Positions 3,182 through 62,400 of a DNA stretch of 64,000 nt are shown one piece after another. The first letter of the stretch is position 1; every line of letters begins with the position of its first letter. The notes below the pieces were generated by a model that worked only from the letters and a program-made list of their open reading frames with translations, ran no database searches and had not been told where the DNA came from. The translations under genes and the position numbers were made by a program. The stretch spans positions 1 to 64,000 of IMG/VR virus record IMGVR_UViG_3300012931_000667. One strand, written 5' to 3'. Origin of the DNA: a virus.

Positions 3182-3663
3182 TATAGGTTTCCTTGATCAT
3201 CTTCATCAAAAGCATCTTCAAATTCATCATAATCATCATCATTACCTTCTGCATAACTAGTATCCACATATTCAGAAAAGTTTGTATCTAATATCTTAAA
3301 ATAAAAAATACCATTATTAAACTCATACTCTATTTTTTGTCCACATTTTACATCAAAAATTAATCCAGCACTTTTAATATAGTCATCTATACTTTCAATA
3401 TACTCTTTTTTCTATAATTCTTTAGAAACAAGTCCTAATACACCAGCATCAACAGGATATCTATCATGTTGTGTTCCTGAATATTCTCCATCCCCATAAG
3501 ATGTATTTGATACAATAAAAAATCCATCATTAACTATAAATTCACCATCACTATATCCATGTGTATCTCCCCATATTTTATCATAGATATCATCATCCAT
3601 TATATAACAAATATCACCAAAGTAAATTGTAGTATCATGATCAATAGTTAATATTTTACGCAT
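3181..3663 (-). pseudogene. 160-codon gene with one in-frame amber (TAG) codon
   Basis: The frame of the 83-residue upstream half continues after the TAG at 3414-3412 for 76 codons with no other stop. It ends with TAA at 3183-3181, overlapping the RfbH-like ATG. The second half (KKEYIESIDDYIKSAGLIFD ... ending DAFDEDDQGNL, very acidic) has no ATG, GTG or TTG near its beginning, so it cannot readily be translated alone. Either a nonsense mutation broke the gene, the TAG is suppressed, or there is a sequencing error. Other genes here end in TAG right before the next start (for example NrdG), so TAG is not reassigned genome-wide. Confidence 0.7.
3412..3663 (-). CDS. conserved phage protein, first half of a TAG-interrupted reading frame
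   Basis: This frame gives 83 residues from an ATG at 3663, ending at a TAG (3414-3412). It contains FGDICYIMDDDIYDKIWGD, GDGEYSGTQHDRYPVDAGV and LGLVSKEL. This resembles a family of phage proteins I remember as GDICY...W...YGDG...VDAG.IGVVPLEL, whose members normally continue after that point. No function is known to me. The same frame continues for 76 further codons after the TAG (see the 3181-3663 entry), so this may be a truncated form or the upstream part of a readthrough product. Confidence 0.6.
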   Translation of the reverse strand: MRKILTIDHDTTIYFGDICYIMDDDIYDKIWGDTHGYSDGEFIVNDGFFIVSNTSYGDGEYSGTQHDRYPVDAGVLGLVSKEL

Positions 3664-3678
3664 TATTTTCCTTCCTTT

Positions 3679-4020
3679 CTAATTTAAATAAAACCCAATA
3701 CCTTTTGTATTTTTTCCAGAATAAAAAGTAATACCAAATAAACACCCATGATAAAATCTATTAATTTTTCCAAAATTAGAATTTTGATCATACTGTACCC
3801 ATAAAGGATGTAACATTAATTTATGAAAAAAATCTATATCAACAAATAAAGGAAAATCAGTAATATCTTCATTTTTAAATAATTCTATATTAAAATTATC
3901 AAAAAAATCTTCTAATTTTTGAAGGGATTTTTGTAATGTTAATATAACTTCTGAATTTGTATCCTCTTTTTTTAATTCTAATAAATCATTCTTTAAAATA
4001 TTAACATTATCAAAAAACAT
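3679..4020 (-). CDS. hypothetical phage protein, 113 aa
   Basis: I do not recognise this gene. It is a soluble, acidic N-terminal half with a heptad-like Leu/Ile pattern (LKNDLLELKKED ... LQKSLQKLEDFF) that could form a short coiled coil, followed by an aromatic-rich C-terminal half (FYHGCLFGITFYSG). Its ATG overlaps the stop of the upstream gene (TAATG), and the ribosome binding site AAGGAAGG lies inside that gene's last codons. Confidence 0.7.
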   Translation of the reverse strand: MFFDNVNILKNDLLELKKEDTNSEVILTLQKSLQKLEDFFDNFNIELFKNEDITDFPLFVDIDFFHKLMLHPLWVQYDQNSNFGKINRFYHGCLFGITFYSGKNTKGIGFYLN

Positions 4021-4797: not shown

Positions 4798-5925
4798 TTA
4801 TTTCTCCTTACTAACCTTTGTCATAAGTTCAATAATAGTTTTATTACTAATATCATTAAAGGCATCTTTAAATGATACATATTTATTATCAGCTAAACTA
4901 AATTGTAATGATGGATACACACAATTCTTCATATTCCATATAGCCATTTCTTTTCTATTAATAAAACTATCCCTTAAAGATAGATAATCTGTAAAGTCAC
5001 ATGCTAATTTATTAATAACTTTATTATAACTATCTTTTATTTCTAATATAATTTCCTTAAATTCTGGAAAATAATTTAGAAATTCATCTAGTTCACCTAA
5101 TTTAATTAAATCTATAGCTCTAGATACTGATACCCCACCTTCCCCTTTTAGATGGTGTACAGCTACATAAGCAGGAGACTTGATCTTTACTCGATTAAAA
5201 TTACCATCTACAGCTACATATCCTTCTTCACTAAAAGGAAGTATAAAAGCCGCATTAATACAATCCTCTAATGAATGTAATGGATATTGATTAGGAATAG
5301 GAAATAATTCTGCTAATTTATGATTACCTATGTATTCTTCTTGATAAGTAATATTATTTCTAACACCAATAAAAGTTATATCAATTTCATTATGAGGAAC
5401 TACTACTTTATTGTATGGTGAAGTAAGCTCAAACATATAGGTATTATCAATAGTGAATACTTGATACCAATTTTCTCTTTTTATATATTTATCAAATGCT
5501 ACTAATGCTAATTCTCCAAAACTATGGTAAGGCATAGCATCACCGAATGATTCTATTTCAGCATCATAAGCATCAATAGTACCATTAGTAGCAATATTCC
5601 AACCATCATAATAATATAATTTAATTAATGATCCATCTATTTTAGTTAATACCCTAGTAGTAGACCAATCCAATTCTGGACAATAAGACTCACCATAATT
5701 CCCGAATTTATTATAAGGGTAGCAAACTACTCTCCATGTATCTACTTCAAGTATAATCCCTCTACACTCTCTTACTAGAGGATTACTAAAATCTGAAGCT
5801 ATTTGATTATACTTAAATAATCGTAATTTACCTTTTTCTTTAATATCAATACAATATGGTTTTTCTGATAGTAATTCTGCATAGTTATTAGGATGATCTA
5901 ATAGGAATTGTTGTAATTGTAACAT
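4798..5925 (-). CDS. rnlA: T4 Rnl1-like RNA ligase
   Basis: This 375-residue protein is the size of T4 RNA ligase 1 (374). The nucleotidyltransferase motif I is TKIDGS, with the predicted adenylated Lys at 95. Upstream is the Rnl1-type block RECRGIIL ... NKFGNYGE. Later come the motif IIIa-like FELTSP.NKVV, motif IV EEGYVAV and motif V RVKIKSPAYV. Rnl1 enzymes join 3'-OH and 5'-PO4 ends of broken tRNA anticodon loops. The gene belongs to a leftward cluster with a second ligase and a PPP phosphatase, which supports a role in RNA repair. No polynucleotide kinase is visible in this window, so the 5'-phosphate would have to come from elsewhere. Confidence 0.9.
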   Translation of the reverse strand: MLQLQQFLLDHPNNYAELLSEKPYCIDIKEKGKLRLFKYNQIASDFSNPLVRECRGIILEVDTWRVVCYPYNKFGNYGESYCPELDWSTTRVLTKIDGSLIKLYYYDGWNIATNGTIDAYDAEIESFGDAMPYHSFGELALVAFDKYIKRENWYQVFTIDNTYMFELTSPYNKVVVPHNEIDITFIGVRNNITYQEEYIGNHKLAELFPIPNQYPLHSLEDCINAAFILPFSEEGYVAVDGNFNRVKIKSPAYVAVHHLKGEGGVSVSRAIDLIKLGELDEFLNYFPEFKEIILEIKDSYNKVINKLACDFTDYLSLRDSFINRKEMAIWNMKNCVYPSLQFSLADNKYVSFKDAFNDISNKTIIELMTKVSKEK

Positions 5926-15430: not shown

Positions 15431-16213
15431 TTATCCTTCATAATACATCCAATGAAATCCACCAGCTTTATTTATTTCTCCTCTACAACAAGCTCCAATA
15501 CTTGTTCTATTAACTTTTGTTATTTTTGAAGCTTCATGTATAGATTCATAAACAATATTAGTTTCAATATATAAAACTTTTTTTGAGTTCACATTCAAGT
15601 TCCCTCTTTTACCATACATATGATTTTTTTCACCTAATTGTGCTATAGACATTTTATCTTTATGTTCTTTAGTAAATTTTTTACCTTTTCTTAATATACT
15701 CATTTTTGTTTTTGTTTCTTCTGAAGCTTTTTTTCCTAATTTTGTTTTTCTCATTTTTTCTTTAGATTTTTCAGTATGACTTCTTCCTAACCATATTTTA
15801 TTTCCTTTTTTAATTCTTCTTAAATTGTCTTTAACTTTTTCTGATCTTGGTTTCCCTAATTTTGATAAACTTATTTTTAATTTTGCTTCTTCAGTTAAAC
15901 CTCCATTAGTACCTCCTTCTTTCATATTGTACCCATATTCTTTATTTAGTGTCTTATAGAAACTAATGTAGAAACATTCCAAAATATTTAGAATTAATTG
16001 ATCTTTTCTATTTATGTTTGATAATATCTCAAATTTAAAATTATCTTTTCCATAAGTAATCCAAGATTTTTGTAGATGTTTATTATAATGCTTATTATTA
16101 TTTAATAATTTTTTATGATCTTTCCATCTATTATCAATATTTATGCTTTGACCTATATACTTTTTATTATTAATTAAATTAGTAATACAGTAAATCCCAA
16201 TAATTTTTTCCAT
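15431..16213 (-). CDS. GIY-YIG homing endonuclease with NUMOD DNA-binding repeats
   Basis: The 260-residue protein opens with GIYCITNLINNKKYIGQS, the GIY-YIG core, then conserved RWKDHKKLL. It is followed by two or three NUMOD3-like repeats (for example GKPRSEKVKDNLRR, HTEKSKEKMRKTKLGKK) and a C-terminal NUMOD1/IENR-like module ending AGGFHWMYYEG. Such free-standing enzymes cut cognate alleles to spread. It lies directly after the Hen1-ligase gene, separated from it by the structured leader at 16226-16329. It reads in the same direction and has the ribosome binding site AAGGGA. Confidence 0.92.
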   Translation of the reverse strand: MEKIIGIYCITNLINNKKYIGQSINIDNRWKDHKKLLNNNKHYNKHLQKSWITYGKDNFKFEILSNINRKDQLILNILECFYISFYKTLNKEYGYNMKEGGTNGGLTEEAKLKISLSKLGKPRSEKVKDNLRRIKKGNKIWLGRSHTEKSKEKMRKTKLGKKASEETKTKMSILRKGKKFTKEHKDKMSIAQLGEKNHMYGKRGNLNVNSKKVLYIETNIVYESIHEASKITKVNRTSIGACCRGEINKAGGFHWMYYEG

Positions 16214-16225
16214 TATTTTTCCCTT

Positions 16226-16329
16226 TTAAGTGGTTCCCGCCACTAATACAAATAGTTAAAAAATTAAAAGAGTTAGCTTAAAATTATTAATTTCGAGCAA
16301 CAGGCGGGAACCTGCTGTCCTCTTCTAAT
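16226..16329 (-). ncRNA. kissing-loop leader RNA, copy A (GIY-YIG gene)
   Basis: Minus-strand leader between the Hen1-ligase stop and the GIY-YIG ribosome binding site. Hairpin 1 (16318-16299) has stem CAGCAGG/CCTGTTG with loop TTCCCG. Hairpin 2 follows, with one mismatch and an AAT loop. Hairpin 3 (16245-16230) has stem AGTGG/CCACT with loop CGGGAA. The loops of hairpins 1 and 3 are exact reverse complements. Linker sequence (AGAGGACAG, AAGCTAACTCTTTT, TTTTTTAACTAT, TTAAAAGG) matches copies at 48557-48672 and 55343-55465, whose loops are different but also mutually complementary. Function is unknown. Masking or exposing the adjacent ribosome binding site is one possibility. Confidence 0.85.
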
Positions 16330-18942
16330 TTATAAAGTTTTATCAATATTATTAAAGGAAATTCCCTCCATTCCTAAAAATCCTGCTACTAATCTTTTAG
16401 TTACTAGTTGTCTTTTATGAATAAAAGAACTTAAAATTAAATCCCCTAGTTCATTTTCTTGTATTGCTAATAATCTTTTCATTTTTGTTTGTCTTTTACA
16501 AATTACATTAAAATTTTTATTTTCATACATGTCAATACCATAAATTAGTAATAAATAATCTTTTCCTCTTACTTTAAGAGAAGGCTGTATCATATATCCA
16601 TTTTGAGCATATTGCCTTTGTACTAATGGTTTAAATACAAAACCTTCACCACCATTTTCAGTATACTCTATCCATGAACTAATACAATTATTTATTGATT
16701 TAGGATCATTAAGATTTACATGAATAGACTCTACACATTTAAACTTATCATTTTCAATTGATCGAATGTATCCTAATTTTTCAATGTTGTCAAGTTCTTT
16801 CCCTAATATCCAATCATACTTATTACCAACTTTATCCCCTAATGCTAATATATTAAATACTCTGCAATATGGTTCTTCTTCTGCAATATAATTCTGTAAT
16901 GACTGCATATATTTATCTACATTAATTAATCCATTAACATCTTTTTTAATTGTTCTATCTATAGTAGCACATTCTCCTATACCTTGGAACTTATTTCTAA
17001 TTAACCATTTTCCTTTTAATGACCATGGCATCATTTCAGTATCAAGTATAGTAACGTCATATTCTAATTGATCTACTATTGAATCATAGAATTCTTGATC
17101 CATACTATCATCATCAAAAAATTTATTACCATTACGAGTATTAATATAAATCAATTTATCCATATTAAAATCTTTAGCTATATCTAATGATTTAAATAGT
17201 AATATATGTGCTCGACTACCCATGTACTTCTTTTCTGCTACAAGTTCAGTTATTCCCCTTGATCTATAATAATCAAAAACTGTAGTAGGGTATTCTAGAT
17301 AATCATTATGATCCTTACTAAAGTCTACAGGAGGAACAGTAGGAGCAATATAAAATATATTAGCACTATTAGTAAGGAATGCTCGATTAGAGTATCCATT
17401 AGAAATCTCTTTACCCTCTATGATATAATCACTAACAGGTAAATATATTTGAGAATGAAAACTAGATGTTTTATAACTAAAAGGTAACTTTCTATTAGGA
17501 TCAGAATTAGCAATTACAGCTAATATAGATGGAGTATCATAATAAGGTACTCCACATCCAGGCATATTTGCTCCATCAAGAATCCAACTATGAATAATAC
17601 TTTCTTTTTTATCTTCTGCTAGTTCAATTCCAGCATAACTAATTTCATATTTATTTTTTTCAAAATAACTACTAACTTCACTTTTGAATTGATCCCATGT
17701 AAACTCTATTTTATGCCCTTTATCCCTATAACCATTATTTCCTTGAATCTTTCCACTATCAAATAATTTTGAATTGTAATCATAATTAGGAGTAGTTAAT
17801 ATTATTACTTTAGGATTAATTACATTTATAATAAAATCCATTAATTGTTTTCTTTCATGGTCATCAAAATGCTCTATGATTTCAGATAACAATACAATAT
17901 CTATAGATTGTGGTAGTATTGATACATTAGGATATAGTAAATTCATTTGATAAAAATGAATATGCTTAAATTTATCTAATCCTCTTCCTGCTTTTTCTGA
18001 TGCATCATAAGCATAGATATCAAAAGGAATATTTTCATCTTTTAATTTATCATTTATCATTACTGATAATCTACCATTAGCACAACCATAATCAATAATA
18101 TTTAAATGTTCTGTTACTACTTGTTTTTCTTTTTGCATTAAACTGTAGTACATTACTACCTGATCACTAATCCATTTATGTCGTAATTGATGTAATGTAG
18201 TAAAATCAATATATAGTTGTTCCTTTACTACCTCTTGATCATCATCAATATCAATTACTGATTCTATAAATTTTTTCTCTAATGACTTATTACTTCTGCA
18301 TAATGTACGAATAATATTTTTAGTATAACTATTATCACTTTCTAACCATTGACACATTTTGATATACTTATCTATTTGTTCATCAGAAATAGGAAACATA
18401 TTATAATTAAAAGTAGAGTATAAACAAATCATAAATACTTTCTGTAATGCTACCTGTAATGTACTTTTAATGGTTAGATGTAATCCATAAGCTACATCAA
18501 AATTATCATATGTTTTAAATACATTAAAACCTAATGAACTAAAGACATTATGAATATCTCCAAAATCACATAAAAATGGTCCTATATCAAAACATATATA
18601 CCTTTCTCTAATGGATTCATCTTTAAGAACTGTACCCTTATTCATAAAATTAATAATTTCATCTTTATAATTATTAGTAAAAGCAGAACGTAAACACTCA
18701 TAGATTGAATTTAAAAAATATGGAGTAACCCCATATAACTGATATGAATTATATACTTCTTCATTTCTTTCTTTTAGTGTAGGAAGTAATTCAGTGAAAC
18801 TTAAATTAGAAGTAATACTATACACATTTCCTAAGTATTCTCCTCTTATTTTATTTTTATCATAAATTGATCCTGGCTTTTTGCATAAAAGGTATGAGAA
18901 TATTGAATCATTTTCCTCACCAGAATAAATATTAAAAAACAT
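16330..18942 (-). CDS. Hen1-type RNA 2'-O-methyltransferase fused to a Pnkp-type RNA ligase
   Basis: The 870-residue protein has three regions. Residues 1-~270 fill the position of the Hen1 N-terminal domain, which activates Pnkp ligase. Residues ~275-450 are a SAM methyltransferase with IIDYGCANGRLSV (282-294), SEIIEH (Glu354, Glu357, His358), TTPNYDYN and DKGHKIEFTW (His410); this E-x-x-E-H...H set is the metal site specific to Hen1. Residues ~530-870 are a nucleotidyltransferase resembling the ligase domain of bacterial Pnkp: EKKYMGSR with nucleophile Lys572, GGEGFVFKP and SLKVRGKDYLLLIYG. Bacterial Pnkp/Hen1 normally uses two proteins, with kinase and phosphatase domains on Pnkp. Here the kinase and phosphatase are absent and Hen1 and ligase are one chain. 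The likely role is to seal and 2'-O-methylate cleaved RNA so that it resists recleavage. Domain limits are estimated. Confidence 0.87.
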   Translation of the reverse strand: MFFNIYSGEENDSIFSYLLCKKPGSIYDKNKIRGEYLGNVYSITSNLSFTELLPTLKERNEEVYNSYQLYGVTPYFLNSIYECLRSAFTNNYKDEIINFMNKGTVLKDESIRERYICFDIGPFLCDFGDIHNVFSSLGFNVFKTYDNFDVAYGLHLTIKSTLQVALQKVFMICLYSTFNYNMFPISDEQIDKYIKMCQWLESDNSYTKNIIRTLCRSNKSLEKKFIESVIDIDDDQEVVKEQLYIDFTTLHQLRHKWISDQVVMYYSLMQKEKQVVTEHLNIIDYGCANGRLSVMINDKLKDENIPFDIYAYDASEKAGRGLDKFKHIHFYQMNLLYPNVSILPQSIDIVLLSEIIEHFDDHERKQLMDFIINVINPKVIILTTPNYDYNSKLFDSGKIQGNNGYRDKGHKIEFTWDQFKSEVSSYFEKNKYEISYAGIELAEDKKESIIHSWILDGANMPGCGVPYYDTPSILAVIANSDPNRKLPFSYKTSSFHSQIYLPVSDYIIEGKEISNGYSNRAFLTNSANIFYIAPTVPPVDFSKDHNDYLEYPTTVFDYYRSRGITELVAEKKYMGSRAHILLFKSLDIAKDFNMDKLIYINTRNGNKFFDDDSMDQEFYDSIVDQLEYDVTILDTEMMPWSLKGKWLIRNKFQGIGECATIDRTIKKDVNGLINVDKYMQSLQNYIAEEEPYCRVFNILALGDKVGNKYDWILGKELDNIEKLGYIRSIENDKFKCVESIHVNLNDPKSINNCISSWIEYTENGGEGFVFKPLVQRQYAQNGYMIQPSLKVRGKDYLLLIYGIDMYENKNFNVICKRQTKMKRLLAIQENELGDLILSSFIHKRQLVTKRLVAGFLGMEGISFNNIDKTL

Positions 18943-47221: not shown

Positions 47222-48556
47222 TTGATAATCCCATCAAAGTTTTCAAATTTAGATTTAAGTGATCCTATTTATAGTTATGCTTTAGATCAATTAGTAAATA
47301 CTAATAATAATCTAAATATAATAGGTTCAGCAGGAACAGGAAAAAGTATATTATTATCTCTTGCTTATGATATGTTAAAAAATCAAGGAAAAAATGTAGT
47401 AGTAGTTTGTCCTACTGGAATTGCTTCTTTTAATTTACAAAAAAAAGGTATTCCTGCTGTAACAATTCATAGCTTTTTTAAACTTCCTCCTGCTTCAGTA
47501 TATAGTTCTGGAATGATTCATATTAATAATAATTTGTATGAATTAATGAATAATATAGATGTATTAATTATAGATGAAGTTTCATTTATGAATTGTTCAT
47601 TATTAGATTTTATACATGAATTACTATTAAACTATAGGTCAAAACAAGAACAAAATATTCCTAGAATGATTCTTTTTGGAGATCCTTTACAATTAGAGTC
47701 TCCAATGGATAAGAAAGATAAAGCAGTAATGAAATATTTTGATGAATTATATGAAGGAAAAATTAATTATTTTAATGCTAACTCTTTTAGAGACTATGGA
47801 TACAAAGTAATTCAACTAACTAAGATATTTAGACAGTCTAATGAAGTATATCAAAGTATTTTTAATCGTGTACGTCAAGGTACACAAACTAATGAGGATT
47901 TAATAATACTAAATGAGCAAGTAATAAGTGAAGAAGAATATTTTAAAAGAAATGAAATGTATTTATATCTCTCCCCTACTAATGCTGGTGCAGATTTAGT
48001 AAATAAAAGTTACTATGATATTCTTGAAGGTAGACCAAGAATGTATGAAACATATATTCATGGTGATGTTGATTTAAGTAAAAAGAAGAATATTCATGAA
48101 AGAATTTACTTAAAAAAAGATTGTCAAGTTATGTGTTTATTTAATGCTCCTGATGGATCATATGTAAATGGAACTTTAGCTAAAGTAACAAAATTAAATG
48201 ATGATGATGTAGAAGCCATAAAAGAAAATGGTGAAATTATTACTATTGGTAGGCATCAACTACAAGATTACAAGTATGATTATAATGAAATTACAAAACA
48301 AATTACATTAAATAAATGTGGAGATATTGATACATTAGGATGTACATTAGGATTTAGCTTGACCTACCATAAAACACAATCTATGAGTTTAGATACCTAT
48401 TATATAGACTTAGCGAAAGGAATGTTTGCTAATGGAATGTTATATGTAGCAATTAGCAGAGCTGTTGATTTTACTAAAGTAGGATTATCTAGACCTTTAG
48501 CACATCAGGATGTAATTGTGTCAAATGAAGCACTTGAATTTTTAGGTACTATCTAA
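47222..48556 (+). CDS. PIF1/Dda-like SF1 DNA helicase
   Basis: Start chosen at TTG 47222 (reading MIIPSKFSNLDLSDP), because AAGGA lies 8 nt upstream; the frame opens earlier at TTG 47192 without a ribosome binding site. The 444-residue protein has Walker A GSAGTGKS, motif Ia CPTGIASFNL, motif II IIDEVSF, motif III LFGDPLQLESP, motif IV-like FRQSN and the C-terminal SLTYHKTQSMSLD and YVAISRAVD. PIF1/Dda/RecD-like helicases unwind 5'-3' and remodel forks. A kissing-loop leader and GIY-YIG gene follow its stop. Confidence 0.92.
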   Translation: MIIPSKFSNLDLSDPIYSYALDQLVNTNNNLNIIGSAGTGKSILLSLAYDMLKNQGKNVVVVCPTGIASFNLQKKGIPAVTIHSFFKLPPASVYSSGMIHINNNLYELMNNIDVLIIDEVSFMNCSLLDFIHELLLNYRSKQEQNIPRMILFGDPLQLESPMDKKDKAVMKYFDELYEGKINYFNANSFRDYGYKVIQLTKIFRQSNEVYQSIFNRVRQGTQTNEDLIILNEQVISEEEYFKRNEMYLYLSPTNAGADLVNKSYYDILEGRPRMYETYIHGDVDLSKKKNIHERIYLKKDCQVMCLFNAPDGSYVNGTLAKVTKLNDDDVEAIKENGEIITIGRHQLQDYKYDYNEITKQITLNKCGDIDTLGCTLGFSLTYHKTQSMSLDTYYIDLAKGMFANGMLYVAISRAVDFTKVGLSRPLAHQDVIVSNEALEFLGTI

Positions 48557-48672
48557 ATTAAGAGGACAGTAGGTTGACGCCTATTGCTAAAATTATTCCA
48601 GTTTTAGCTAACTCTTTTATTTTTTTTAACTATATAAAATAAAGTTGCGTCAACAACTTAAAAGGAAAAATT
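48557..48672 (+). ncRNA. kissing-loop leader RNA, copy B (GIY-YIG gene)
   Basis: Between the helicase stop and the GIY-YIG start. Hairpin 1 (48567-48586): stem CAGTAGG/CCTATTG, loop TTGACG. Hairpin 2 (48587-48607): CTAAAA/TTTTAG. Hairpin 3 (48642-48659): stem AAGTTG/CAACTT, loop CGTCAA. Loops 1 and 3 are exact reverse complements. Then comes TTAAAAGGAAAAATT and ATG. Linkers match copies at 16226-16329 and 55343-55465; loops and stems differ by compensatory changes. Confidence 0.87.
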
Positions 48673-49524
48673 ATGGAAGAAAAAGTATTGTTACTTGAAG
48701 ATCGTAGATTTTATGTTTATATTTATCTAGACCCTAGAAAACCTGGAAATTACAACTATGGTGAATACCATTTTGATTTTGAACCTTTTTATGTTGGTAA
48801 AGGAAGTGGATATAGAGCTTGGAGTCATTTGCAATCTTATATGTTAAAAGAAACTGGAAATTTAAGAATTAATAAATTTAGAAAAATTATTAATAATGGA
48901 TATAAAATAGAACCTATAATAATTAAAACTAATATTTTAGAAAAAGAATCTTTTTATTATGAAAAATTATTAATTAAATTGATAGGAAGATATGATAAAA
49001 ATAAAGGACCATTAGTTAATCAAACAGATGGTGGAGAGGGTACTTGTGGAACTATTTTTTCTAAAGAAGCTATAGAAAAAATGAGACAAGCTAATTTAGG
49101 TAGAAGATATTCCAATGAAATTAATAAGAAAAAAGGAAGAAAAGGAAGATTAGTTTCAGAGGAAACTAAAGAAAAACATAAACAATATAAAGTTTCTGAA
49201 GAAGTAAAGAGAAAACAATCTAAAAATAAAGAAGGAAATAAAAATCCTAGATTTGGAAAACCAGCAATGAATAGAGTTAAAGTTATTTATGTAAATGAGA
49301 ATAAAGAATTTAATTCTTTATTAGAAGCTGGAGAGTACACTAATAGGTGTTCAAGTGATATTCACAAATGTTGTTCTGGAAAAGTAAAATCAATAGGAAG
49401 AAATAGTGGAAATAAATTTTATTTTATGTATGTATCAACTTATATTAGTTTATCTAATGAAGAAAAAAAACAATTATTATCTAATTTTGATTTAACACAA
49501 CAATTTATCTTAAACCATATATAA
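48673..49524 (+). CDS. GIY-YIG homing endonuclease with NUMOD repeats
   Basis: The 283-residue protein opens with a GIY-YIG variant (FYVYIYLDPRKPG ... EPFYVGKGSGYRAWSH), then GGEGTCGTIFSKEAIEKMRQ. NUMOD3-like repeats follow (GNKNPRFGKPA) with a NUMOD1/IENR1-like end (FNSLLEAGEYTNRCSSDIHK, NKFYFMYV). The enlarged loop between the two halves of the GIY-YIG motif marks the subgroup whose YIG part reads YVGKG. It follows the PIF1 helicase and carries the kissing-loop leader. Confidence 0.88.
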   Translation: MEEKVLLLEDRRFYVYIYLDPRKPGNYNYGEYHFDFEPFYVGKGSGYRAWSHLQSYMLKETGNLRINKFRKIINNGYKIEPIIIKTNILEKESFYYEKLLIKLIGRYDKNKGPLVNQTDGGEGTCGTIFSKEAIEKMRQANLGRRYSNEINKKKGRKGRLVSEETKEKHKQYKVSEEVKRKQSKNKEGNKNPRFGKPAMNRVKVIYVNENKEFNSLLEAGEYTNRCSSDIHKCCSGKVKSIGRNSGNKFYFMYVSTYISLSNEEKKQLLSNFDLTQQFILNHI

Positions 49525-55109: not shown

Positions 55110-55342
55110 TGGAACAACAAAACTTTGATTATAGAATATGTTTTCATAAAATGATTCATAATGAAGAATATTATGAAATACATAAAGTATACTATAAAAA
55201 AGATGGAACGATAGATAGAATAATTGATGCTCATCCTATTATAGGGAAAACTATTAGCGATATGAATACTGCATTAGGCATGATGTTATGGGCGGATAAA
55301 AAACCCATTATAGATTATAGTACTAAAAAGGAGATAGAATAA
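55109..55342 (+). CDS. hypothetical phage protein, 77 aa
   Basis: A small charged protein (FDYRICFHKMIHNEEYYEIH) overlapping the lipase stop by 1 nt. The pattern EYYEIHKVYYKKDGTI resembles short conserved phage proteins. A kissing-loop leader follows 8 nt after its stop. Confidence 0.66.
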   Translation: MEQQNFDYRICFHKMIHNEEYYEIHKVYYKKDGTIDRIIDAHPIIGKTISDMNTALGMMLWADKKPIIDYSTKKEIE

Positions 55343-55465
55343 TTTATAGGGACAGCAAGGCGCTAACCTTGTTGCTAAGGTAATTCCAGCTTTAGCTAAC
55401 CTATTTTTTAATATTTTTAACTATTTAAAAATAGAAGTCTTTAGCGAGACTTAAAAGGAAAAATT
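55343..55465 (+). ncRNA. kissing-loop leader RNA, copy C (HNH gene)
   Basis: Hairpin 1 (55353-55374): stem CAGCAAGG/CCTTGTTG, loop CGCTAA. Hairpin 2: CTAAGG/GCTTTAG region. Hairpin 3 (55435-55452): stem AAGTCT/AGACTT, loop TTAGCG. Loops 1 and 3 are exact reverse complements. It is followed by TTAAAAGGAAAAATT and ATG. It precedes an HNH gene, whereas the other two copies precede GIY-YIG genes. Confidence 0.87.
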
Positions 55466-56416
55466 ATGGAAAATAGATTTCAAGAGGCATTTAGTAAATT
55501 ACCATCAGTTGATTTAGAGCATCAAATTCATTTGAATAGGTATATTAAATTTATTAGTAGCAGACTAGAAAGAAAATTTGAATATAAAAAAGGTTTGTGT
55601 AAACATCATGTACATCCTGTTTCTTTTGGAGCAAATAAAGGTTTTAAAGAAAAATGGAACATAATTGTACTAACAGAAAGAGAACATTTTATTGCTCATT
55701 TAATTCTATATAAATGCTATGGTGGAAAAATGACAAGAGCCTTTTTTATGATGAATAATGGAAAGAATATTTTAAGTGGTAATTATAGTAATTTAAATTC
55801 TAAACAATATGAAAAATTAAGAAAAGAGTATACAGAAAAAATAAGTGGAAAAGGTAATCCTATGTATGGTAAAGAAATGAAGGAAATAAATAAAAAATTA
55901 AGAAAAATTCTTTGGACAGGTAAAAATAATCCTATGTATAATTCAAAAAGATATAAAAATAAAAATCCTTTCTATGGTGAACATCATACTGAAGAAACTA
56001 AGATTAAATTAAAAAAAATAGATAAAACAAAAATAATGAAAAAAGTTATATTATTAAATACTAAAAAAATATTTAATAGTATAACAGAAGCTAGTAAGAT
56101 AACTAATATAAGTGCTAGTTCCATAATAGGTTGTTGTTCACATAATCCAAAAATTACTTGTACTCATTATGGATATGAAAATTATTATTGGTTATATATA
56201 GAAGAGTATGACCCTAATTTTGATTATAGCTATTTATTAGATTCTAAAAAAATTATTTGTATAGAAAAAAATGAAATATTTAATAGTGTAAAAGAATGTT
56301 CATTAAAAATGAATATTTCTGAAACATATTTATCATTATGTTGTAATAATAAAGTAGATTCTGCAAAAGGATATCATTTTATGAAGTATAATGCATATAA
56401 AGGAAAAAATGATTAA
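55466..56416 (+). CDS. HNH homing endonuclease with NUMOD repeats
   Basis: The 316-residue protein has the HNH core CKHHVHPVSFGAN ... NIIVLTEREHFIAHLIL (two His-rich strands around a conserved Asn-Ile-Ile), then NUMOD3-like GNPMYGKEM, NNPMYNSK and NPFYGEHH repeats and NUMOD1-like C-terminal modules ending AKGYHFMKYN. It ends overlapping the SNF2-like helicase start by 8 nt and supplies that gene's ribosome binding site. It carries the kissing-loop leader. Confidence 0.88.
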   Translation: MENRFQEAFSKLPSVDLEHQIHLNRYIKFISSRLERKFEYKKGLCKHHVHPVSFGANKGFKEKWNIIVLTEREHFIAHLILYKCYGGKMTRAFFMMNNGKNILSGNYSNLNSKQYEKLRKEYTEKISGKGNPMYGKEMKEINKKLRKILWTGKNNPMYNSKRYKNKNPFYGEHHTEETKIKLKKIDKTKIMKKVILLNTKKIFNSITEASKITNISASSIIGCCSHNPKITCTHYGYENYYWLYIEEYDPNFDYSYLLDSKKIICIEKNEIFNSVKECSLKMNISETYLSLCCNNKVDSAKGYHFMKYNAYKGKND

Positions 56417-61464: not shown

Positions 61465-62400
61465 ATGATTATAGGTATTTATAAAATAAGTAACAAAGTT
61501 AATGGAAAGGTTTATATTGGACAATCTTGGAATATTGAAAAAAGATTTAAAGAACATAGAAAAAGAGAACTTAATAATCATTTAAAAAATGCTTTTAATA
61601 AATATGAAATTGAAAATTTTTCTTTTGAAATAATAATGACCTTTAAAAATGGTCCCTTTACTCAAAAATATTTAGATAAATTTGAAGATTATTACATTAA
61701 ATTTTATGATTCAATGAATAGTAAAAAAGGATATAATAAACGTGAAGGAGGAAGTAATGGAAAGATGTCTAAAGAGTCAAAAATTAAAATAGGTAATGCT
61801 AGTAGAGGTGAAAAAAATGCTAATTATGGAAAAAAATTTTCTAAAGAAACCTTATTTAAAATGAGAATAGCTAAATTAGGAATTAAACAATCTGAAGAAC
61901 TTAAAATAAAAAGAGGAATATATAAAAAAGGAAAAGATAATCCTCACTATGGCATTATTCGTTCTGATGAAACAAAATATAAAATAAAAATTAGTAGAAA
62001 TAAAATGGCTGTTGTCTGTATAGAGACTAAAGAAAAATTTGATTCTGTAACAGAAGCTAGTAAAAAATATAAAATAGATAAAAAATCAATATTAAATGTT
62101 TGTAGAAATATTATCAATTATAATACTGCTGGTGGCTTTCATTGGATGTTTTTAAGTGATTATGATGAAAATAAAATTTATAATTTTAGAAAAAACAAAA
62201 CAAATGAAATTAAGGTAATAAATATAGATACTATGGAAATTTTTGATTCAATTACAAAAGCCGCTAAAAAATATAATTTATCTATTTCTAATATTCATTC
62301 TTGTTGTAATAAAAAACAAAAAACTGCTGGTGGTTATCAATGGATGTACTATATTGAATATTTAAAATTAGGACTTGACAAGAAAAGTATAATATGTTAG
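61465..62400 (+). CDS. GIY-YIG homing endonuclease with NUMOD repeats, inserted at the helicase 3' end
   Basis: The 311-residue protein begins GIYKISNKVNGKVYIGQSWN, the full GIY-YIG motif, then FSFEIIMTFKN, YNKREGGSNGKMSKESK. NUMOD3-like NPHYG repeats follow and two NUMOD1/IENR1-like modules (VVCIETKEKFDSVTEASKKY and VINIDTMEIFDSITKAAKKY), each ending AGG(F/Y)(H/Q)WM. The ATG is 3 nt after the helicase stop. No kissing-loop leader precedes it. Confidence 0.91.
   Translation: MIIGIYKISNKVNGKVYIGQSWNIEKRFKEHRKRELNNHLKNAFNKYEIENFSFEIIMTFKNGPFTQKYLDKFEDYYIKFYDSMNSKKGYNKREGGSNGKMSKESKIKIGNASRGEKNANYGKKFSKETLFKMRIAKLGIKQSEELKIKRGIYKKGKDNPHYGIIRSDETKYKIKISRNKMAVVCIETKEKFDSVTEASKKYKIDKKSILNVCRNIINYNTAGGFHWMFLSDYDENKIYNFRKNKTNEIKVINIDTMEIFDSITKAAKKYNLSISNIHSCCNKKQKTAGGYQWMYYIEYLKLGLDKKSIIC

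Follow-up and report, generated by a model that had tools for sequence, protein, structure and literature searches.

What could be the function of a structured leader that precedes homing endonuclease genes of unrelated families in one phage? To our knowledge, the control of free-standing homing endonucleases, which are selfish genes, is almost unstudied outside T4. The window, that is, the whole stretch of DNA analyzed here (64 kb of a 77.9-kb virus contig), holds three such leaders, named copies A, B, and C (Table 1). An earlier note on this DNA had described them as a three-hairpin RNA of possibly regulatory function in which the loops of hairpins 1 and 3 make a selected contact.

Leaders of the window phage and their fold

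All three leaders are present, two before GIY-YIG genes and one before an HNH gene. As the earlier note had claimed, their loop pairs (TTGACG/CGTCAA in copy A, CGCTAA/TTAGCG in copy B, and TTCCCG/CGGGAA in copy C) are exact complements that differ between copies. A fourth copy was found outside the window at 75472-75542 of the same phage, with its own loop pair (CTACTAA/TTAGTAG) and followed by an endonuclease VII-like gene.

Table 1. Positions of the RNA copies, their parts, and the following genes in the window; the last row refers to contig L051.
Feature	Position	Strand	Remarks
Copy A three-way-junction RNA	48553-48622	+	Covariance model match, 67.6 bits; covariation; minimum-energy fold is a three-way junction
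Copy A P1	5' strand 48560-48564; 3' strand 48612-48616	+	
Copy A P2	48567-48586	+	Loop TTGACG, 48574-48579
Copy A P3	48587-48607	+	
Copy A CTAA junction	48608-48611	+	
Copy A hairpin 3	48642-48659	+	Loop CGTCAA, 48648-48653, complements P2 loop; directly 5' of Shine-Dalgarno (from sequence)
Copy A Shine-Dalgarno AAAAGGA	48660-48666	+	From sequence
LEM-3-like GIY-YIG homing endonuclease gene, after copy A	48673-49524	+	PF22945, 6.7e-11; phrog_314 homing endonuclease
Copy B three-way-junction RNA	55339-55410	+	Covariance model match, 67.4 bits
Copy B P1	5' strand 55346-55350; 3' strand 55400-55404	+	
Copy B P2	55353-55374	+	Loop CGCTAA, 55361-55366
Copy B P3	55375-55395	+	
Copy B hairpin 3	55435-55452	+	Loop TTAGCG, 55441-55446, complements P2 loop (from sequence)
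Copy B Shine-Dalgarno AAAAGGA	55453-55459	+	From sequence
HNH-type homing endonuclease gene with NUMOD1/NUMOD3, after copy B	55466-56416	+	phrog_655
Copy C three-way-junction RNA	16262-16331	-	Covariance model match, 71.3 bits
Copy C P1	3' strand 16268-16272	-	
Copy C P2	16298-16317	-	Loop TTCCCG, 16305-16310
Copy C P3	16277-16297	-	
Copy C hairpin 3	16229-16244	-	Loop CGGGAA, 16234-16239, complements P2 loop (from sequence)
Copy C Shine-Dalgarno AAAAGGG	16221-16227	-	From sequence
GIY-YIG homing endonuclease gene with NUMOD3, after copy C	15431-16213	-	PF01541, 4.1e-9; phrog_314
L051 RNA	3714-3787	-	

When the whole window was scanned for exact instances of two hairpins (4 bp, 6-nt loops) lying 40 to 130 nt apart and having complementary loops, only leaders A, B, and C were returned. 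A Markov null yielded 0.55 such motifs per 64 kb, with a maximum of 2 in 40 runs. The motif alone is only mildly unusual, and it gains weight because it occurs in register within homologous leaders. The four loop pairs are nearly exclusive to their own copy, with duplex energies of −5.4 to −7.8 kcal/mol within a copy versus −2.6 kcal/mol or weaker between copies. The foot of hairpin 3 lies 0 to 2 nt from the Shine-Dalgarno AAAAGG, and the P2 loops are complementary to the loop of this added hairpin rather than to the Shine-Dalgarno or to themselves. No late promoter was evident at the copies of the window phage.

The hairpins of the three-hairpin layout are present, but the enclosing helix P1 (AAGAG/CTCTT and variants), which surrounds hairpin 1 (P2) and hairpin 2 (P3), had been missed; hairpins 1 and 2 form with it a covarying three-way junction. 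The conserved unit reads P1, GA, P2 (closing CAG/UUG), P3, CUAA, and a three-way junction is the minimum-energy single-sequence fold of copies A and B. Comparison with homologues bears out this predicted fold: in an alignment of 12 sequences both sides change in 15 of the 21 pairs, and the covariation score exceeds that of shuffled alignments for 12 sequences (0.742 versus 0.201), for 28 sequences (0.721 versus 0.232), and for 45 distinct sequences of subtype 2 (0.562 versus 0.166). The third base pair of P2 is a conserved wobble (GU 22, AC 4, and UU 2 among 28 sequences) and, together with the GA and CUAA junction nucleotides, is near-invariant across distant phages. On the sense strand G-U mismatches outnumber A-C mismatches (51 versus 12), an excess that points to an RNA transcribed from this strand.

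Two further genes of the window phage were noted. A GIY-YIG homing endonuclease at 61465-62400 (+), also phrog_314, lacks the RNA leader, which means that not all endonucleases of this phage carry the RNA. The other, at 16330-18942 (−), is the gene preceding the copy C endonuclease; its 870-aa product combines methyltransferase and PNKP ligase domains and resembles a fused Hen1/Pnkp-type RNA repair enzyme, here encoded by a phage.

Members of the family and their neighbors

Covariance models and a homologue search, which had been proposed as a check, revealed 83 distinct elements in viral contigs, with the strong covariation given above. The sample consisted of metagenomic contigs; the elements were collected with two covariance models (R1 and R2), run on whole virus records, and with pattern scans, the first of which gave ten distinct homologues and the second of which used the core type GGGACAG..TTTCC..GGATTACC. 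Part of the set came via queries with endonuclease proteins, and the core-pattern scans started independently of endonuclease genes. By R1 and R2, the window phage carries four copies, one 204-kb phage seven, and one 224-kb phage seven.

Most elements sit 5' of homing-endonuclease-type genes, and comparison across contigs indicates that this association spans several nuclease families: LEM-3 GIY-YIG, Seg-like GIY-YIG, endonuclease VII/HNH-like, zinc finger with HNH or DUF7487, and phrog_559-type endonucleases. In the first pattern scan all ten distinct elements adjoin a nuclease gene or a nuclease remnant. The proposal that the leader travels modularly with unrelated nucleases is therefore borne out by its homologues. 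It is not exclusive to them, since about ten elements from the second scan precede other phage genes, among them replication initiators, a terminase, a ParB/methyltransferase-like gene, and phrog_709. The targets have no common metabolic theme. In 34 of the 83 elements, about two fifths, the RNA is divergent from its target.

The statement that the leader belongs to no described family agrees with Rfam 15, which gave no credible match over the window, copy A, element L188, and ten subtype-2 loci; the sole hit, preQ1-II, scored 17.9 bits against a cut-off of 47. The statement had, however, overlooked a functional parallel, the C4 antisense RNA of phage P1, to which we return below. We found no isolate phage carrying the element, either by blastn of the elements against isolate phages, where the matches were at chance level and one fell in a coding part whose annotated genes leave the leader no space, or in the whole records of T4, S-SRM01, B23, RN05-S, S-N03, S-B68, and Kimel. 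A weak match in B23 was rejected, being inside a coding sequence. In bacteria, R2 had no match at E ≤ 0.1 in 62 loci (476 kb) among the matches listed by a similar loose pattern. Searches for an empty insertion site via neighboring genes gave no relatives.

Several loci show particular arrangements. At L202 (1501-1578), L300, L472, L463, L464, and L189, the RNA and its loop match to the ribosome-binding site (RBS) persist beside deleted or broken endonuclease genes; L202 resembles an orphaned RNA copy, and the following gene may now be using its promoter. In two phages a tRNA-like sequence (T-arm and acceptor end) follows the RNA within about 20 to 60 nt, in L194 after 1575 and in L051. An opposite-strand 337-aa ORF downstream of the RNA in L186, next to the endonuclease, appears by eye to be intein (Hint)-like. 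L482 bears both core types on one contig, at 3621-3687 (−) and 5593-5662 (−), one preceding an HNH gene and the other a ParB/methyltransferase-like gene.

Loops, ribosome-binding regions, and promoter boxes

In the divergent layout the RNA and the endonuclease gene are read in opposite directions from opposite strands, and the endonuclease start codon is located upstream of the RNA. The P2 loops of these elements nearly copy the complement of the endonuclease RBS, as in ATTCTACTCC (L186), TATACCTCAC (L229), TTTCTCCTG (L200), and GTCTTCCT (L051). Across 26 divergent elements the longest exact match between the P2 loop and its own RBS averages 7.5 nt versus 4.5 nt when permuted (z = 12.8; 0 of 20,000 permutations), and the duplex energy is −13.0 versus −7.0 kcal/mol. 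The permutation exchanges RBSs between elements, and related elements of one phage are not fully independent in it. The P3 loop of the same 26 elements was at null level as an anti-RBS, and the RBS of the other neighboring gene shows no match to either loop.

The choice of loop is reversed in the co-directional layout. For 15 such elements, the window phage excluded, it is the P3 loop that matches its own RBS (7.1 versus 5.0 nt, 0 of 20,000; L470 reaches 12 nt), and it is the P2 loop that is at null level. Ten non-endonuclease targets follow the P3 rule as well (0 of 20,000). The matching bases include the Shine-Dalgarno or lie directly beside it, and L184 and L196 have an exact identity of only 4 to 5 nt. 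Paralogues of one phage illustrate the matching: loop ATTGCTCC corresponds to RBS sequence GGAGCAAT in L188, and CACTCC corresponds to GGAGTG in L199. Their endonucleases are 61% identical, yet loop and RBS have changed in pairs.

This comparison across elements establishes, at the level of complementarity, a match between loop and target whose loop depends on the layout, and it upholds the suggested regulatory role as a probable one. The contact between the loops of hairpins 1 and 3 fares differently. The loop complementarity stands, but the homologues outside the window phage have no hairpin 3, and the kissing of hairpins 1 and 3 would be a local variant of the window phage. A universal contact of this kind is nearly refuted by these homologues, whose loop is predicted to pair with the RBS region instead.

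Boxes of the sequence TATAAATA, with at most one mismatch, were found 5' of 24 of the 26 divergent elements (3.1 expected), mostly 9 to 14 nt before the core, and such a box also precedes 15 of the 20 co-directional elements (5.7 expected). On the opposite strand the box reads TATTTATA, and in this form it occurs on the 3' side of 21 of the 26 divergent elements (5.5 expected; exact in 17), whereas no exact copy was present in the 20 co-directional ones. We take these boxes to be late promoters, by inference from T4. So read, the comparison suggests that the RNA of a divergent element lies between two T4-late-like promoters that face each other and serve the RNA itself and the endonuclease mRNA, respectively. 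The late promoters of T4 endonucleases have been reviewed (PMC2988022).

The P2 loop of the co-directional elements has a property of its own. Of 34 distinct loops outside the window phage, 20 contain a palindrome of at least 6 nt (3.5 expected; no more than 11 in 1,000 shuffles), and 27 contain a palindrome of at least 4 nt (13.9 expected; no more than 21 in 1,000 shuffles). Divergent P2 loops are at null level (1 of 26 and 6 of 26, respectively). The palindromes, for example, TTGCAA, TTCGAA, TCATGA, TGGCCA, GTGCAC, and TCGCGA, differ in sequence, which shows that palindromy and not sequence is conserved. Loop-loop homodimers are known from the retroviral dimer initiation hairpin and, by this analogy, would be the obvious reading of the P2 palindromes. 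A tentative extension, which we hold possible rather than probable, is that co-directional RNAs homodimerize via their P2 loops while the P3 loops silence the RBS, and that the individually matched RNAs also work in trans from one co-infecting phage to another. This would give the endonuclease cassette RNA immunity or copy control, similar to that of plasmid antisense RNAs.

Known systems and the candidate mechanism

The closest functional parallel is C4 (RF01695; targets c4-a1b1), like the new RNA a three-way junction of 70 to 80 nt in which P1 encloses adjacent P2 and P3. In the C4 antisense RNA of phages P1 and P7, too, the loops carry the specificity (PMC5320573). The C4 of P1 is annotated at 48343-48419 of NC_005856, directly 5' of icd, and scores 68.8 bits with the Rfam model; its P3 loop consists of the b' sequence TCACTAAC, whose pairing partner b2 is located at the icd RBS, and its a' sequence CTGTCAA lies in the junction. 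C4 is cut by RNase P out of the precursor of its own target and works in trans. As in C4, the co-directional elements are encoded in the leader of their target on the same strand and, outside the window phage, their P3 loop complements the target RBS; this complementarity is absent in divergent members and in the window phage.

Nevertheless, the covariance models of C4 and of the new family match in neither direction. At its gathering threshold C4 had no match in the window or in ten subtype-2 loci, and up to E = 1 it had none in copy A or L188. The junctions are GA, 0, and CUAA in the new family versus 0, 0, and 7 nt in C4. Moreover, C4 has a second contact, a', in its P3-P1 junction, which pairs with a2 upstream of the RBS, whereas the junction of the new family is invariant; a junction complement equivalent to a' was absent in all 18 readable leaders of 20 co-directional ones, while the P1 control recovered both a' and b'. 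We know of no divergent layout, facing promoters, palindromic P2 loop, or kissing hairpin among the features of C4. So the new family would work like C4 without being classed as C4. A literature search, which covered few subscription journals, gave no paper linking C4-type RNAs with homing endonucleases.

T4 homing endonucleases are known to be controlled by RNA hairpins that sequester the RBS (PMC2988022); in the T4 group such hairpins are found at I-TevI, I-TevII, I-TevIII, segB, and Aeh1 mobE, and late promoters are involved (PMC2988022, PMC3014915). The new family would likewise hide the endonuclease Shine-Dalgarno in RNA structure. The T4-group structure is, however, a single hairpin that includes the RBS strand, with the late promoter sited so that late transcripts lack the hairpin, whereas the new RNA has several helices and loop pairing, follows the promoter, and can be encoded opposite its target. 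Its RBS is not part of a stem of the T4 type but lies outside the three-way junction, where it is complementary to a loop or follows hairpin 3. HEARO and OMEGA RNAs are also structured RNAs adjoining the nuclease gene of a mobile element. In contrast to these, the new loops match the RBS of an mRNA rather than a DNA target, the nuclease families are mutually unrelated, and there was no Rfam match in the window.

Taken together, the comparisons make it very probable that the leader represents a new family of C4-like antisense RNAs that silence the translation of neighboring, usually selfish endonuclease, genes. We infer that the RNA is transcribed, pairs with its target in cells, and represses it. 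The three-way junction with its invariant core (P1-GA-P2-P3-CUAA and the one P2 wobble) would present two loops, one of which, adapted in each copy to the neighboring gene's ribosome-binding region, would block translation initiation. In the divergent layout the RNA would start at a T4-late-like promoter, and its P2 loop would act in trans on the endonuclease mRNA made from the facing promoter. In the co-directional layout the RNA would be part of the mRNA leader, and its P3 loop would pair with the Shine-Dalgarno region as in C4 of P1, acting in cis, or in trans once processed. The window phage would be a third variant of the same brake, in which the P2 loop kisses the hairpin beside the Shine-Dalgarno; here the mechanism is drawn by analogy, the paired site being a loop next to the Shine-Dalgarno in four copies of one genome.

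The near-invariance of the junction nucleotides across distant phages could also reflect a pocket for a ligand or a protein, with the pairing between loop and Shine-Dalgarno as the expression platform, and the co-directional layout does resemble an aptamer followed by RBS sequestration. Such a riboswitch or protein-binding leader is unlikely, however, since the divergent members would have to act on another molecule, the targets have no metabolic theme, and no Rfam riboswitch matched. We give very little credence to the earlier note's reading of a purely cis-acting kissing-loop leader specific to endonucleases. It accounts for the matched and mutually distinct loop pairs of the four window-phage copies but not for homologues that lack hairpin 3 and have other loop targets, for divergent members, which cannot be cis leaders of the endonuclease, or for members that precede other genes.

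The joining of one module to unrelated nuclease families at the cassette edge, in up to seven copies per phage, would suit a DNA structure for recombination or cleavage that aids the movement of endonuclease genes, with the promoters incidental; but the conserved G-U wobble fits an RNA, a match between loop and RBS plays no part in DNA mobility, and non-endonuclease neighbors exist, which makes this highly improbable. Least probable of all is that the element processes the mRNA as a self-cleaving ribozyme or as the remnant of an intron, given that, despite the compact junction, its near-invariant nucleotides, and the loop contacts, no Rfam ribozyme or intron family matched and loops that track the RBS are unexpected of a ribozyme.

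With silencing by a C4-like antisense RNA as the favored explanation, several nuclease families have apparently taken up one RNA module, which a change in one loop directs to each new target, the loop used depending on gene orientation. Antisense control of the C4 type, known from P1-like phages, would thereby extend to another RNA scaffold, for which no sequence relationship is detectable, and the natural set of more than 80 loop-target pairs may be usable for the design of orthogonal RNA repressors.
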